33,497 nucleotides of DNA from assembly GCA_002067745.1 (NCBI GenBank), contig MVRU01000025.1:1-33497 (forward strand), given 5' to 3'. The position numbers were made by a program, and so were the translations under genes. Every line of letters starts with the position of its first letter. Position 1 is the first letter of the stretch. The DNA is from Syntrophus sp. PtaU1.Bin005. Lineage in GTDB: Bacteria > Desulfobacterota > Syntrophia > Syntrophales > Syntrophaceae. The notes under the pieces are model-generated. The model was given only the letters and a program-made list of their open reading frames with translations, was not told where the DNA came from and did not search any database. Below are positions 16,901 through 21,122 of this stretch, piece after piece.

Positions 16901-17029
16901 GGCCTGCTCTTTTCGCAGACGCTGACCCTGTATGTGACGCCGGTGTTCTATGTAGCGATGGAAAAATTGCGGAGCCGGATCGCCAGCGGCCATCGGAAAC
17001 AAGACTCCGCGACGGGGGCGGAGCCCTGA
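13913..17029 (+). CDS. RND multidrug efflux permease (HAE1, MdtB/MdtC-like)
   Basis: 1038-aa inner-membrane proton-drug antiporter with the standard 12-helix, two large periplasmic loop layout. The first helix follows MNLSEPFIRRPVMTMLC. The proton-relay residues are visible: the Asp pair D405-D406 in FVVDDAIVMLENI (TM4) and Lys about 926 in LVKKNGIMMVDFAIEAQR (TM10). MALTLSVGFVVDD and PSEDRDQISIR also match HAE1 permeases. Sequence style (PVSDLPAVDFPTISVSASLPGA) is nearest the MdtB/MdtC group. The GTG start at 13913 overlaps the adaptor stop. No second permease follows, so it probably works as a homotrimer. No clear terminator was found downstream. Confidence 0.94.
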   Translation: MNLSEPFIRRPVMTMLCMLSIVLAGLIGYRLLPVSDLPAVDFPTISVSASLPGANPETMASTVATPLEKEFTTIAGLDSMISTSSQGSTRITLQFDLNRNIDAAAQDVQSAISRASRRLPEDLPTPPSFRKVNPADQPILYLALTSPTLPMYLLNEYGETQLAQQISRVTGVAQVSVYGSQKYAVRIELDPHALASRGIGIDEVSSVIGHYNVNNPLGTLTGAQTLATLQSENQLMKAGLYLPLVVAYRDGQPVRLQELGNVRDSVENDRVAAWFATPTTRSRAIILAIQRQPGTNTIQVADAIKALLPAFREKLPASVSLVVLRDSSIPIKDSARDVQFTLYLTLVLVVLVIFLFLRNLSATVIPSLTLPVSLIGTFAVMYLLDYSIDNLSLMALTLSVGFVVDDAIVMLENIMRHIEMGKPRMQAALEGAREIGFTIVSMTLSLAAVFIPVLFMGGIVGRLFREFSVTIAVAVLISGFVSLSLTPMLASRFIRAPGRERHGRVYLMVESGFDAMLSFYRSTLLWVLSRERATLIFSAALLAATVFLFYAIPKGFIPSEDRDQISIRTEAAENISFDSMVQHQLALLDIVQKDPNVDRFMCSVASGGGQSATNTGSMFIVLKPRRERELSADQVIDRLRPKLASVPGIRAFPTNPPPINIGGRVTKSLYQVTFQGIETKELFRYGAEMEDRMRRMEELQDVSSDLQLKNPEVHIDIDRDQAFILNVTPMQIENALYSAYGSRQISTIYTPNNDYQVIMELLPQYRTDPSVLSMLHVRSSTGQLVPLRAITTLREDIGPLTISHSGQLPSVTISFNLKPGYSLGQAVERIQAMTAASMPSGMTFEFQGTAKAFQSSLASMGILLILAIVVIYIILGILYESFYHPVTILSALPFAGFGALLALMAFRHDLSIYAFVGIVMLVGLVKKNGIMMVDFAIEAQRRQGKNPHDAVYEACLVRFRPIMMTTMAALMAGLPIALGYGAGAESRRPLGLAVVGGLLFSQTLTLYVTPVFYVAMEKLRSRIASGHRKQDSATGAEP

Positions 17030-17400
17030 TCGATCAAGACATCCACAAAAAAACGAACGCCGGAATGCATCCCATTGGCTGAACGAAAAGGACCCTGCCG
17101 CAGGAGAAGAGATCCTGGTGGCGTCTCCGGGTTCCGTCCGCATAGTGTAACTCCGCGGGCGTTGCACATGGCTGCGCTGCGCTGTGATGGTGAAAGGCGG
17201 AAATAATCCGGAAATCCGGAACCGTCAGAGTTCCTCAAGGTGATATGCAGCAAGATGCCGCCGGCTGTTGCCGCCGTATTTTTTTTTGACACTCGCCGCT
17301 GGGGCTTATATACTTTTCCTGCGTGGCGAGGCACGTTTTTATCGGTACTGAGAAAATGGTGCGGGGAACGCCAGGGGGTCAACAGGTGGGGAGGGAGAAA
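17030..17400. other. interval carrying the promoter of the protease operon
   Basis: About 370 bases between the RND permease and the S8-like gene. It holds the strong promoter at 17286-17314 and an ~80-base leader. I see no gene, and no convincing terminator after the permease. Confidence 0.55.
17286..17314 (+). promoter_or_regulatory. strong sigma-70 promoter of the S8-caspase-hydrolase operon
   Basis: TTGACA (17286-17291), a 17-base spacer, TATACT (17309-17314): all six -35 bases and five of six -10 bases match consensus, with optimal spacing. Predicted transcription start near 17321. This makes a GTG at 17323 implausible as a start and supports the ATG at 17401. Confidence 0.75.
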
Positions 17401-18099
17401 ATGCAGGAGAAGAAAGGAAAAGGCTTTTTGCTGGGAGGGCCCGCCGGAACCGGGGCGAACGGCCCGCAGGAGGGCGACATCAGGCTGCGCGACGAGAGGG
17501 GAAACTGGCATGTCGTTCAGGGCATTCCCCTGTATCCGCCACTCTATACCGATCGCTCCGCGACGATAGCCGTCATCGATTCCGGGATCCTGGCCGATCA
17601 TCCGCAGATCAGGGGACTGATTGCCGAGCAGGAGGATTTTACCGGGGAGGGTCCGGAAGACAGGATCGGACACGGCACGATTGTGGCCATTCTGACACTG
17701 CAGGCCCGGAGTGCAGCGCCTCCGGAATTCCAGAACCTGCCCTCTCCGAGGATTCTTGTGGCGAAGGTGGCGGATGCCGACGGCACGGTAGACAAGCACG
17801 CCGTGATTTCAGCAATCGACTGGGCCGCCTCCCGTGGAGCCGGAGTCGTCAATCTCAGCCTGGGGTTTATCGAAGGGACGGACGATTACAGCGATCTGTG
17901 TTCCGCCATCACGAAGCATCCCGAAGTGCTCTTTGTGGCGGCTGCCGGCAACTACGGACCGGATGTCAGGGTGTATCCCGCGGCATGCGCCCAGGATGGG
18001 GCGGCCAATATAATCTCTGTGGGAACGACGGACGATTGGTCCGGGAAAGGCGACATCCAGGCTCCGGGAACGGTCACCCTGAAGCCTCTTGAACCGTAA
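17401..18099 (+). CDS. subtilisin-fold (S8) protein lacking the catalytic serine
   Basis: 232-aa S8/subtilisin-like domain. The Asp motif is AVIDSGI (D60), the His motif is GHGTIVAI (H91), NLSLGF follows, and the oxyanion Asn is in AAAGN (N184). The sequence ends at DIQAPGTVTL, exactly where subtilisins continue to the GTSxAxP serine segment, so the nucleophile and last helices are absent. The stop at 18097-18099 is followed in the +1 frame by a 20-codon open stretch (18083-18142) reading like a C-terminal helix (AVEAALKQI), which suggests a deletion or frameshift. No signal peptide, so cytoplasmic. The ATG at 17401 has GGAGGGAG immediately upstream. First gene of a three-gene operon with a caspase-like protease and an alpha/beta hydrolase. 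It may be a decayed protease or a non-catalytic recognition or inhibitor subunit. Confidence 0.85.
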   Translation: MQEKKGKGFLLGGPAGTGANGPQEGDIRLRDERGNWHVVQGIPLYPPLYTDRSATIAVIDSGILADHPQIRGLIAEQEDFTGEGPEDRIGHGTIVAILTLQARSAAPPEFQNLPSPRILVAKVADADGTVDKHAVISAIDWAASRGAGVVNLSLGFIEGTDDYSDLCSAITKHPEVLFVAAAGNYGPDVRVYPAACAQDGAANIISVGTTDDWSGKGDIQAPGTVTLKPLEP

Positions 18100-18146
18100 G
18101 GCTGTCGAGGCAGCACTGAAGCAGATCCACAGAAGGAGGTTCTGAT

Positions 18147-19901
18147 ATGGAGAGGGCCGCCGTTCTTATCGGTGTCAGCAAAACGGGCAATCTGCCCGAG
18201 CTCCAGGCGGTAACGCCGAGCGTCCAGCGCATGACGGACTGGGCGCGCAGGCAGGGAATCGATGAAGGGCACCTGCAGGTCCTGACGGACGAGAAGAATC
18301 CCGTAACCGTTGAGCAGGTCCATTCGGCGATCACTGCCCTTGTCGACCGGGCCTCGGTGGAGCAGCTTATCGTCTATTTTTCCGGACACGGAATCAACAT
18401 CGACAGCGAATTCTGGCTTCTTTCCGGTGCTCCGAAAAACGTCAACGAGGCCGTCAACGTCGAGGGAAGCGTGCGCCTTGCCCGGTATTGCGGCATCAGC
18501 CATGTCGTCCTGATATCCGATGCCTGCAGGAGTGCCGCGGAAGGCCTCCTGGCCCTGCAGATCAAGGGCGGCGAAGTGTTTCCCAACGAGCCCGTCAGCG
18601 GGACGGAGAAGCCTGTTGACATCCTCTTTTCGTGCGCCCGCGGGAAACCCTCCCTGGAAATTGTCGATCCGGCCGCGGCGGCGGCTGAAGCGGCCAAGCG
18701 CTATTCGGCGCTGTACACGGAGGTGCTGCTGGACTACCTTACCGGGCGGCACCAGGAGACCCTGCATCCCGTTGAAGAGGACGGCAGGGTCGTCGCAGAA
18801 CTCCGCCTGGGAGAGCTGGCAGACTGCCTCAAGAGGGACGTGCCGGCCCGACTGGCTGCCATGAAGATCGACCCGAAGCTCAACCAGCTACCGGACGACC
18901 GGATCAGCCGCCATACGGAGGATGCATGGATCGCGCGCATGCCCTTCAAGGGCAGGCTTCTCTCCCGGACCTTTTCCCCCGGCATTCCCGCGCGCGAGCC
19001 GCCGCCGGTTACGCCCTTTACGGTTTCCGAGGGACTGGTATCCGCGTCCCTCGAGGGCGACCAGCGCAAATGGAAGGAACTGCTCAGCCTGGAATCAGGC
19101 GGCCGCGAAAGGGGGCTGCTCGAGGCGGTGGCCACCCAGGCGGAGCCCTTCGGCCCGATGCATTTCGAAACCCAGTGCGGGTTCAAGATCCGGGGCGCGC
19201 GGATCGTTGACACGGTCCAGCGCGATGTGGCCGTCGAACTTCTGGGAACGGCGGGAGACACTGTCCGGGTCGGGGGGCTGACGGCGCCGGGGGCGAACGT
19301 GCTCCTCGTCCTCGAAAACGGATGCGGAGTCGCGGTTCCCGCACTGCCGGATTTCATCGCCGCCCTCAGCTTCGAAGGGGGGCAGCTGGTGGATGTGAGC
19401 TATGAACCTTCGGAAAACACGTGGCGCTGGGGCGAGTATGCCCATGCGGTCAACGAGCTGCGTTCCCTGCGGGCGACGATCGCGGCATCGGCCGCCCTGG
19501 GCGTATTCCGCCTCAACGAGGAGGGCGGCCTCGCCCTGGCGAGGCGCATGCAATACGCCAAAGGGGTCGATCCGTCCCTGGCGCTCTACGCGGCCTACGT
19601 CTATGACAGCCTGCAGCGGCGCGACCTCATTGACGAAATGCGCTCTTACATGGAAGGCGATCTCGGCCTTGTCTTCTTCGATGTCGCGCTTCTTTCAAGG
19701 GCGCCGATCATGGGGCGTTTTGTCCCGCCTTTTCCAATGCTTTCCCAGGGGTGGGCCCTTCTTTCCGCCTACCGGGCGCAGTTGCCGCCATCACTTCACG
19801 GAATCGAGCAATGCCGGGTTCCCTCGCTCTGGACGATGTTCAACGGGAAGGGTGTCGCCATGCTTCGAAAAGCAATTCTCTCAGGAGGAATAGAACGATG
19901 A
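18147..19901 (+). CDS. caspase-like (C14) cysteine protease with unknown C-terminal region
   Basis: 584-aa protein. Residues about 1-215 are a caspase/metacaspase-type p20 domain: AAVLIGVSKTG, then the catalytic His in IVYFSGHGI (H81) and the catalytic Cys in VLISDACRSA (C127); both dyad residues are present. DILFSCARGKPSLEI and YSALYTEVLLDYL continue the fold. The rest (~370 aa) is not recognised: a beta-rich stretch (about residues 330-415) followed by a helical part (NELRSLRATIAASAALG, LALYAAYVYDSLQRRDLIDEMRSYM). No signal peptide or membrane helix. GGAGG lies 8 bases before the ATG, and the stop overlaps the next gene as ATGA. Prokaryotic caspase homologues are commonly linked to conflict or cell-death systems; the substrate here is unknown, with the S8-like and hydrolase products as natural candidates. 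Confidence 0.88.
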   Translation: MERAAVLIGVSKTGNLPELQAVTPSVQRMTDWARRQGIDEGHLQVLTDEKNPVTVEQVHSAITALVDRASVEQLIVYFSGHGINIDSEFWLLSGAPKNVNEAVNVEGSVRLARYCGISHVVLISDACRSAAEGLLALQIKGGEVFPNEPVSGTEKPVDILFSCARGKPSLEIVDPAAAAAEAAKRYSALYTEVLLDYLTGRHQETLHPVEEDGRVVAELRLGELADCLKRDVPARLAAMKIDPKLNQLPDDRISRHTEDAWIARMPFKGRLLSRTFSPGIPAREPPPVTPFTVSEGLVSASLEGDQRKWKELLSLESGGRERGLLEAVATQAEPFGPMHFETQCGFKIRGARIVDTVQRDVAVELLGTAGDTVRVGGLTAPGANVLLVLENGCGVAVPALPDFIAALSFEGGQLVDVSYEPSENTWRWGEYAHAVNELRSLRATIAASAALGVFRLNEEGGLALARRMQYAKGVDPSLALYAAYVYDSLQRRDLIDEMRSYMEGDLGLVFFDVALLSRAPIMGRFVPPFPMLSQGWALLSAYRAQLPPSLHGIEQCRVPSLWTMFNGKGVAMLRKAILSGGIER

Positions 19902-20785
19902 AACAGCTGGTGTTCATACACGGTCGTGCGCAGGAGCACAAGGATGCCGCCGAGCTCAAGATGCAGTGGATTGCCGCATTTCGTGAGGGGCTTGAAAAGA
20001 ATGGTCTTTCAATGCCGATTTCCGAGGATGCCATCCGGTTTCCCTATTATGGCGAAACCCTCCATGGCCTCGTGAGCGGACTGCCGCCGGAGAAGGTGGC
20101 GGAGGTCATTGTCAAGGGGGACAACGCCGACGATGAGGAGAGGACTTTCATGCGGGCCGTGATCCAGGAGGTGCAGCAGCGGGCGGGAATCAGTGACGCC
20201 ATGCTCGCCGAGGCGGCCGGAGCGGACGTCATCGCAAAGGGGCCGCTCAACTGGGAATGGCTCCAGGGTGTGCTGAAGGCGATCGACCGCTTCGTGCCGG
20301 GAGCGAGCGGGGCCAGCATCGCCATCGCCACGAATGACGTGTACCAGTATCTTTACAATATCGGCATCCGGGACGAGATTGAAACGGGAATCCGGAAAGC
20401 CATGCTTCCGGACGTTCCGACGGTGGTTGTCTCACATTCACTGGGTACCGTTGTTTCCTACAGCCTCCTCCGCCGTGAAGGGAAGGAGCTCCGCTGGAAC
20501 GTCCCGCTGTTTGTGACGGTCGGCTCTCCGCTGGCGATCACGGCGATCCGGAAATCTCTCGCACCGAACAAGCATCCGGCATGCGTCGGGAAGTGGTTCA
20601 ACGCGATGGACGAGCGCGACGTCGTCGCCCTGTACCCCCTGGACAAGGAAAATTTTCCATTGAATCCTGCCGTGGAAAACAAGACGGATGTGCGGAATCA
20701 TACGGAGAACCGTCACGGGATTGCGGGGTACCTGAACGACAAGGAGGTGGCCAGGCGCATTTACGATGCGCTTGTTCAGCCGTGA
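19898..20785 (+). CDS. alpha/beta hydrolase of the caspase operon
   Basis: 295-aa alpha/beta-hydrolase-fold protein. The N-terminal LVFIHGR supplies the oxyanion HG, the nucleophile elbow is VVSHSLGTVVSY (S181), the acid is probably D238 or D241 in FNAMDERDVVALY, and the catalytic His is likely H273 in ENRHGIAGYL. The triad order is correct, so it should be active as an esterase, lipase or peptidase; the substrate cannot be read from sequence. An extra helical insert (about residues 60-150) separates strand 1 from the elbow. No signal peptide. AGGAGGAA lies about 7 bases upstream and the ATG overlaps the caspase stop (ATGA), so it is tightly coupled. It could be the toxic effector of the module, for example a phospholipase held in check until proteolysis, but that is hypothesis. 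Confidence 0.85.
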   Translation: MKQLVFIHGRAQEHKDAAELKMQWIAAFREGLEKNGLSMPISEDAIRFPYYGETLHGLVSGLPPEKVAEVIVKGDNADDEERTFMRAVIQEVQQRAGISDAMLAEAAGADVIAKGPLNWEWLQGVLKAIDRFVPGASGASIAIATNDVYQYLYNIGIRDEIETGIRKAMLPDVPTVVVSHSLGTVVSYSLLRREGKELRWNVPLFVTVGSPLAITAIRKSLAPNKHPACVGKWFNAMDERDVVALYPLDKENFPLNPAVENKTDVRNHTENRHGIAGYLNDKEVARRIYDALVQP

Positions 20786-20867
20786 CGCAGGGGGCATGTT
20801 TCACGAAGCAGCATCCGGATGAAGAGTTCCCGATCCGCTCAGCGCGCCGCTGTCCGGAGCCGTTGCC

Positions 20868-21122
20868 TTACGGGGCGAAGGGGTTGATCATCTCTGTGCA
20901 GCTTACGCCCGTCTGGGGATCATGACTGCAGATGTATCTTTTCCCCTTGCAGATTGCCTCCCAGCTCTGCGTACCCAGGAAGCCGATCAGAGGCGCGTTT
21001 TCAATTTCGATCTGGTCAGCCTTGCAGTCGATGACGGTCGATGACATCCGGGCGTACTTTTCGGAGACGGCGCAGCCGCTCACCATCAGGCAGGCAATCA
21101 CCCATATGATCGTTTTTTTCAT
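20868..21122 (-). CDS. small outer-envelope lipoprotein, hypothetical
   Basis: 84-aa lipoprotein. The signal is MKKTIIWVIACLMVSGC with lipobox VSGC (Cys at residue 17). The mature part has further cysteines (VIDCKAD, AICKGKRYICS, VSCTE), which could form disulfides in the periplasm. The motif SWEAICKGKRYICS recalls small uncharacterised Gram-negative lipoproteins, but I cannot name a family. The ATG has AAGGAGAG about 6 bases upstream. It converges with the alpha/beta hydrolase and is followed on its own strand by nothing related. Confidence 0.8.
   Translation of the reverse strand: MKKTIIWVIACLMVSGCAVSEKYARMSSTVIDCKADQIEIENAPLIGFLGTQSWEAICKGKRYICSHDPQTGVSCTEMINPFAP

Follow-up and report, generated by a model that had tools for sequence, protein, structure and literature searches.

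A subtilase reading frame without its serine segment at the head of a caspase and alpha/beta-hydrolase cassette in Syntrophus

The pairing of an alpha/beta-hydrolase gene with a caspase gene, and the alternative in which a trypsin is the partner, were described by Kaur, Burroughs, Iyer and Aravind 2020 (PMC7159879). In the vWA-MoxR systems most of the caspases in effector position, and nearly all of the trypsins found there, are inactive, and dominant-negative or peptide-binding roles have been proposed for them (PMC7159879). Among the subtilases (family S8), CspA and CspC of Clostridioides difficile germination are established pseudoproteases, in which two triad residues are changed (PMC6636752). 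Here we analyze a three-gene cassette on contig MVRU01000025.1 of Syntrophus sp. PtaU1.Bin005, within a stretch of 33,497 nucleotides that we refer to as the window (Table 1). The cassette resembles the pair of Kaur et al. in that a caspase gene and an alpha/beta-hydrolase gene lie next to each other in the same direction and have kept their catalytic residues, so that the pairing is present here as well. It differs in being free-standing and in having a truncated S8 gene at its head. No MoxR, vWA or VMAP gene is found among the three genes of the inserted segment, which places that segment outside the definition of the VMAP or vWA-MoxR systems.

In NCBIfam the caspase protein matches the EACC1-associated caspases (NF047832) and nothing else, but its 44.2 bits are far under the curated cut-off of 140, and the place upstream is taken by the S8 reading frame rather than by an EACC1 membrane gene. 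Models of IetS match the S8 core (E 5.6e-13), but at 40.2 bits against a cut-off of 900, and the anti-phage system IetAS consists of the IetA ATPase and a full-length IetS, whereas no ATPase is among the three cassette genes. With the subtilases themselves (PF00082; QhpE, NF049966; PDB 3afg; thermitase, 1tec) the frame has in common the D/H/N motifs and, over the first two thirds of the domain, the core. The C-terminal third, Ser segment included, is missing, and there is no propeptide match. The frame is like CspC and CspA in being subtilase-derived without a functional triad. However, those proteins keep the whole fold and the prodomain and have substituted triad residues, whereas here the segment itself is gone.

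Table 1. Positions in the window of the cassette, its genes and the elements around the end of the S8 reading frame.
Feature	Position	Strand	Remark
Segment missing at the same site in congener G002	16985..20874	.	empty site: 60 bases vs ~3.9 kb
Sigma-70-like promoter TTGACA-17-TATACT upstream of the S8 frame	17286..17314	+	consensus scan, 11/12 matches; consensus match only
S8 subtilase reading frame, 232 aa, truncated	17401..18099	+	D60/H91/N184 kept, no Ser segment
DIQAPG, last element conserved with S8 homologues	18055..18072	+	
TVTLKPLEP + stop	18073..18099	+	breakpoint here or slightly downstream
+1 'orphan' open stretch, 20 codons + TGA	18083..18145	+	no support as S8 tail
AAGGAGG, probable ribosome-binding site of the caspase gene	18133..18139	+	read from sequence
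Caspase-fold protein, 584 aa	18147..19901	+	His81/Cys127 invariant among relatives
Alpha/beta-hydrolase-type protein, 295 aa	19898..20785	+	S181/D241/H273 invariant among relatives

The S8 reading frame terminates in DIQAPGTVTLKPLEP and a TAA stop (18097-18099), 9 residues past its APG motif. Positions 3-193 of the 288 in the PF00082 profile align to its residues 53-216, and in a 57-homologue S8 profile nodes 9-177 of 265 align to residues 50-214. In the consensus of the latter, APG occupies nodes 187-189 and node 208 is the catalytic Ser; about 75 of the 265 domain positions are missing from the frame, including GTSxA and the helix that bears the Ser. A sequence-only reading of this DNA had called D60, H91 and N184 intact, and all three do fall on columns invariant in the homologues (two residues of the triad, Asp and His, and the Asn of the oxyanion hole). 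It had also placed the end exactly before the catalytic Ser; the Ser segment is indeed absent, but the stop comes some 8-20 residues ahead of the expected Ser. Over the covered part, the frame agrees at 23 of the 28 columns that are conserved at 80% or more, which ranks it 5 of 58, at the divergent end and within the range of the homologues. By coding statistics based on ten genes of the window, the coding signal is clear up to the stop, with no second lesion across the 232 codons, and the frame has its own ribosome-binding site. An AlphaFold model of the product was too poor (mean pLDDT 49.7) and was set aside. Lacking the GTSxA nucleophile segment, the predicted product would not be an S8 peptidase and, judged from its sequence, cannot be a protease.

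We give a probability of roughly 0.55 to the reading that the frame is a truncated relic of a cytosolic-type subtilase gene, heading a peptidase/alpha-beta-hydrolase cassette that was probably acquired horizontally. About 75 codons, for the GTSxA nucleophile and the helix that follows it, would have been lost, presumably recently, between the APG motif and the caspase start, through either a deletion or a recombination that joined the gene to the caspase leader. In subtilisins the helix after the Ser is buried in the core. Deprived of this central helix, the product would probably not reach the fold of a complete subtilisin. The two partner genes, caspase and hydrolase, would function as the pair that other bacteria have without an S8 gene, and the dead frame may persist because it is situated between the promoter and the working genes, with which it would be transcribed.

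We collected 66 distinct S8 homologues, one of which runs off its contig, and the Ser segment (G-[TS]-S or a recognizable variant at the expected place) is kept in 64 of the 65 informative ones, with a Chloroflexota protein, L135, as the single exception. Two further S8 matches, in phage and Deinococcus records, carry GTSMATP and GTSLSAP. None of the six frames of the window contains the segment: a Ser-segment profile scores at best 1.4 bits there, whereas two positive controls gave 66 and 33 bits. A Ser-segment query across the source genome gave no match, in a search that is weak because it had no positive control in that genome, and the source genome has no second PF00082 match. Relocation of the segment to another place in the window or genome was rejected, as it was found in neither. 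The same absence makes it extremely improbable that we are looking at a split protease, with the Ser half supplied in trans from a gene elsewhere. The retained D, H and N would suit such an arrangement, for which we know of no precedent. Another source of error could be the draft assembly of 165 contigs from which the window is taken, in that the S8 gene might be complete in the source population, its Ser segment having dropped out during assembly or binning. We consider this quite improbable, given that the sequence on either side is in frame and has good coding signal, that the breakpoint has no repeat that could explain a collapse, and that no stray Ser segment turned up on any contig.

The position of the breakpoint deserves some care. 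One of the two explanations offered by the sequence-only reading was that an internal deletion removed the Ser segment and left an orphan C-terminal helix in the +1 frame. The loss of the Ser segment stands, and that frame is open for 20 codons (18083-18142), but a surviving tail finds no support in either profile score or significant coding signal. The stretch scores -1.8 bits against the S8 profile, thus showing no similarity to an S8 C-terminus. In shuffles of this base composition a given frame stays open for 20 codons with P = 0.40. For coding, the stretch scores 0.03 bits per codon, compared to 0.33 in the body of the S8 frame, and its final codons coincide with the AAGGAGG of the caspase gene. 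The TGA (18143-18145) stands one base before the caspase ATG (18147), rather than two as had been read. This spacing is like that of a tight operon junction, and the position-specific G+C of the stretch is coding-like (0.50/0.40/0.75, over 20 codons only). Additionally, LNRKAVEAAL can be placed by eye on the post-Ser helix of the homologues, which we do not count as evidence. Even so, the normal domain end that should lie beyond that helix is missing too. It is therefore unlikely that the original S8 C-terminal helix was left out of frame here (18083-18145), a proposal that would in any case be mostly a special case of the relic reading. Given the lack of profile score and coding signal and the overlap with the ribosome-binding site, these data are explained just as well by a 3' truncation at the point where the gene meets the caspase leader. 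The breakpoint is between 18073 and the caspase leader, and at this locus 3' truncation and internal deletion are indistinguishable.

The partner genes and their surroundings fit with the relic reading. In a blastn comparison of the window to L030, a stretch of the congener G002, window position 16984 corresponds to 10486 and 20875 to 10546. G002 thus joins the two flanks with 60 bases between, and the three genes sit in a segment that is absent there. The caspase was searched for in three congeners and found in none, which makes gain here a simpler explanation than loss in G002 and suggests that the cassette was probably acquired by horizontal transfer. The 3' end of an RND-type transporter gene (window 16950-17060) differs from that of G002 exactly at the left edge of the segment. 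The caspase protein scores 25.7 bits against PF00656 (cut-off 21.4), as expected of a C14 caspase fold, and its H81/C127 dyad is invariant in nine relatives; its AlphaFold model was set aside as too poor (mean pLDDT 38.2). In the hydrolase S181, D241 and H273 are invariant in 12 members, in keeping with an alpha/beta hydrolase; several relatives match PF12146 and PF12697, although the window protein itself is below threshold. The two genes overlap by ATGA. From these residues both proteins appear catalytically equipped, and they presumably work as a two-gene pair. A second, distant hydrolase relative is encoded in the source genome (L152, G000:C9:14125-14496; 32% over 111 aa), with no caspase in the stretch examined.

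That such a pair can do without an S8 partner is suggested by its occurrence elsewhere. Adjacent caspase and hydrolase genes are found on more than 10 plasmid loci of Ensifer, Sinorhizobium, Bradyrhizobium, Agrobacterium, Rhizobium and Hymenobacter, and none of the rhizobial and Hymenobacter plasmid loci that we read has a co-directional adjacent S8 gene. On a plasmid of Sinorhizobium medicae T10 (L022 1-3008) the pair is adjoined by a divergent 661-aa S8 gene, with CspBA as its best NCBIfam match, and by an MBL-fold gene; these two may be a separate defense module. The idea of a recurrent S8 gene upstream of the rhizobial pairs was rejected, as none is co-directional, and the divergent one of S. 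medicae was set aside. Active-type S8 partners of the same hydrolase family do exist. In the Chloroflexota genome G662 an 863-aa fusion (L167 6102-8693) joins the cassette's hydrolase family to an S8 domain with GTSMSAPH, possibly as a distinct hydrolase-subtilase architecture. The product of the gene directly upstream of this fusion looks like a ThiF/E1-type protein with an aminotransferase-like domain attached. In Streptomyces jietaisiensis the fusion partner of the family is a trypsin domain, and next to this fusion lies an S8 of active type with GTSMATPH. On a Sinorhizobium fredii NXT3 plasmid (L140 5998-8003) a hydrolase of the family precedes a gene for a CHAT-domain protein, a further partner of peptidase type. 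The peptidase partners of the hydrolase family thus vary and include subtilases, and the fusion in Chloroflexota together with the trypsin fusion beside S8 in Streptomyces makes an S8 partner for the hydrolase plausible, which here would be dead. No close relative with the same cassette was found in the genus, the class, the own-phylum and Chloroflexota samples, IMG/VR or phages.

The main alternative is that the frame has been retained as a pseudoprotease, a selected non-catalytic decoy, peptide-binding sensor or regulator of the caspase, in which the substrate-binding half was kept and the nucleophile half discarded. We regard this as distinctly less probable, but it draws on the points that weigh most against a relic, namely that the frame is open and free of lesions, has its own ribosome-binding site and shows coding signal all the way to the stop. 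The S8 branch of the window is also long (1.24, the third longest of 60 tips in the S8 tree), which could reflect an old change of function. Inactive peptidase domains are, furthermore, common in related conflict systems, and in vWA-MoxR systems these include the caspases and trypsins of the effector position (PMC7159879). On the other hand, D and H are kept although they are useless without the Ser, and retention of D, H and N would be expected if catalysis was under selection until recently. No part of the fold is lost in the known subtilase pseudoproteases (PMC6636752), but this frame lacks both the Ser helix and the end of the domain. The caspase-hydrolase pair, moreover, occurs elsewhere without an S8 frame. 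An orthologue sharing the end of the frame was found neither in 395 genomes of the own phylum nor in 301 of the Chloroflexota sample. The sequence-only reading had allowed for an evolved pseudoprotease, and one unrelated Ser-less S8 of similar length does exist.

This protein, L135 (Chloroflexota genome G574; 1351-2073, equal to L168 5178-5900), is a 240-aa S8 with D, H and N and without the Ser segment, and it ends at a structural point similar to that of the window frame. The tree does not support it as an orthologue, and groups it with the hydrolase-fused S8 (support 87, within the limits that long branches set on this tree). The two are not sisters, and they would thus represent two independent losses. 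A partial OLD-like AAA ATPase gene lies near L135, a setting in which decay is also possible. It is nonetheless conceivable, if rather doubtful, that Ser-less half-subtilases form a retained non-catalytic class of decoys, peptide sensors or caspase regulators in peptidase/hydrolase conflict cassettes, having arisen independently in at least two phyla by loss of the whole nucleophile segment and not by point substitution.

Either outcome would be informative about the putative defense cassettes to which this locus may belong. If the S8 frame is only a relic, it records how one conserved hydrolase family has exchanged its peptidase partners (caspase, trypsin and subtilase), and an S8 protein would seem dispensable for the caspase-hydrolase pair. 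A retained frame would instead encode a non-catalytic component that derives from a subtilase yet does without a segment of the structural core, unlike the known subtilase pseudoproteases, and the cassette would offer a simple three-gene system for asking what role inactive peptidases have in bacterial conflict systems.
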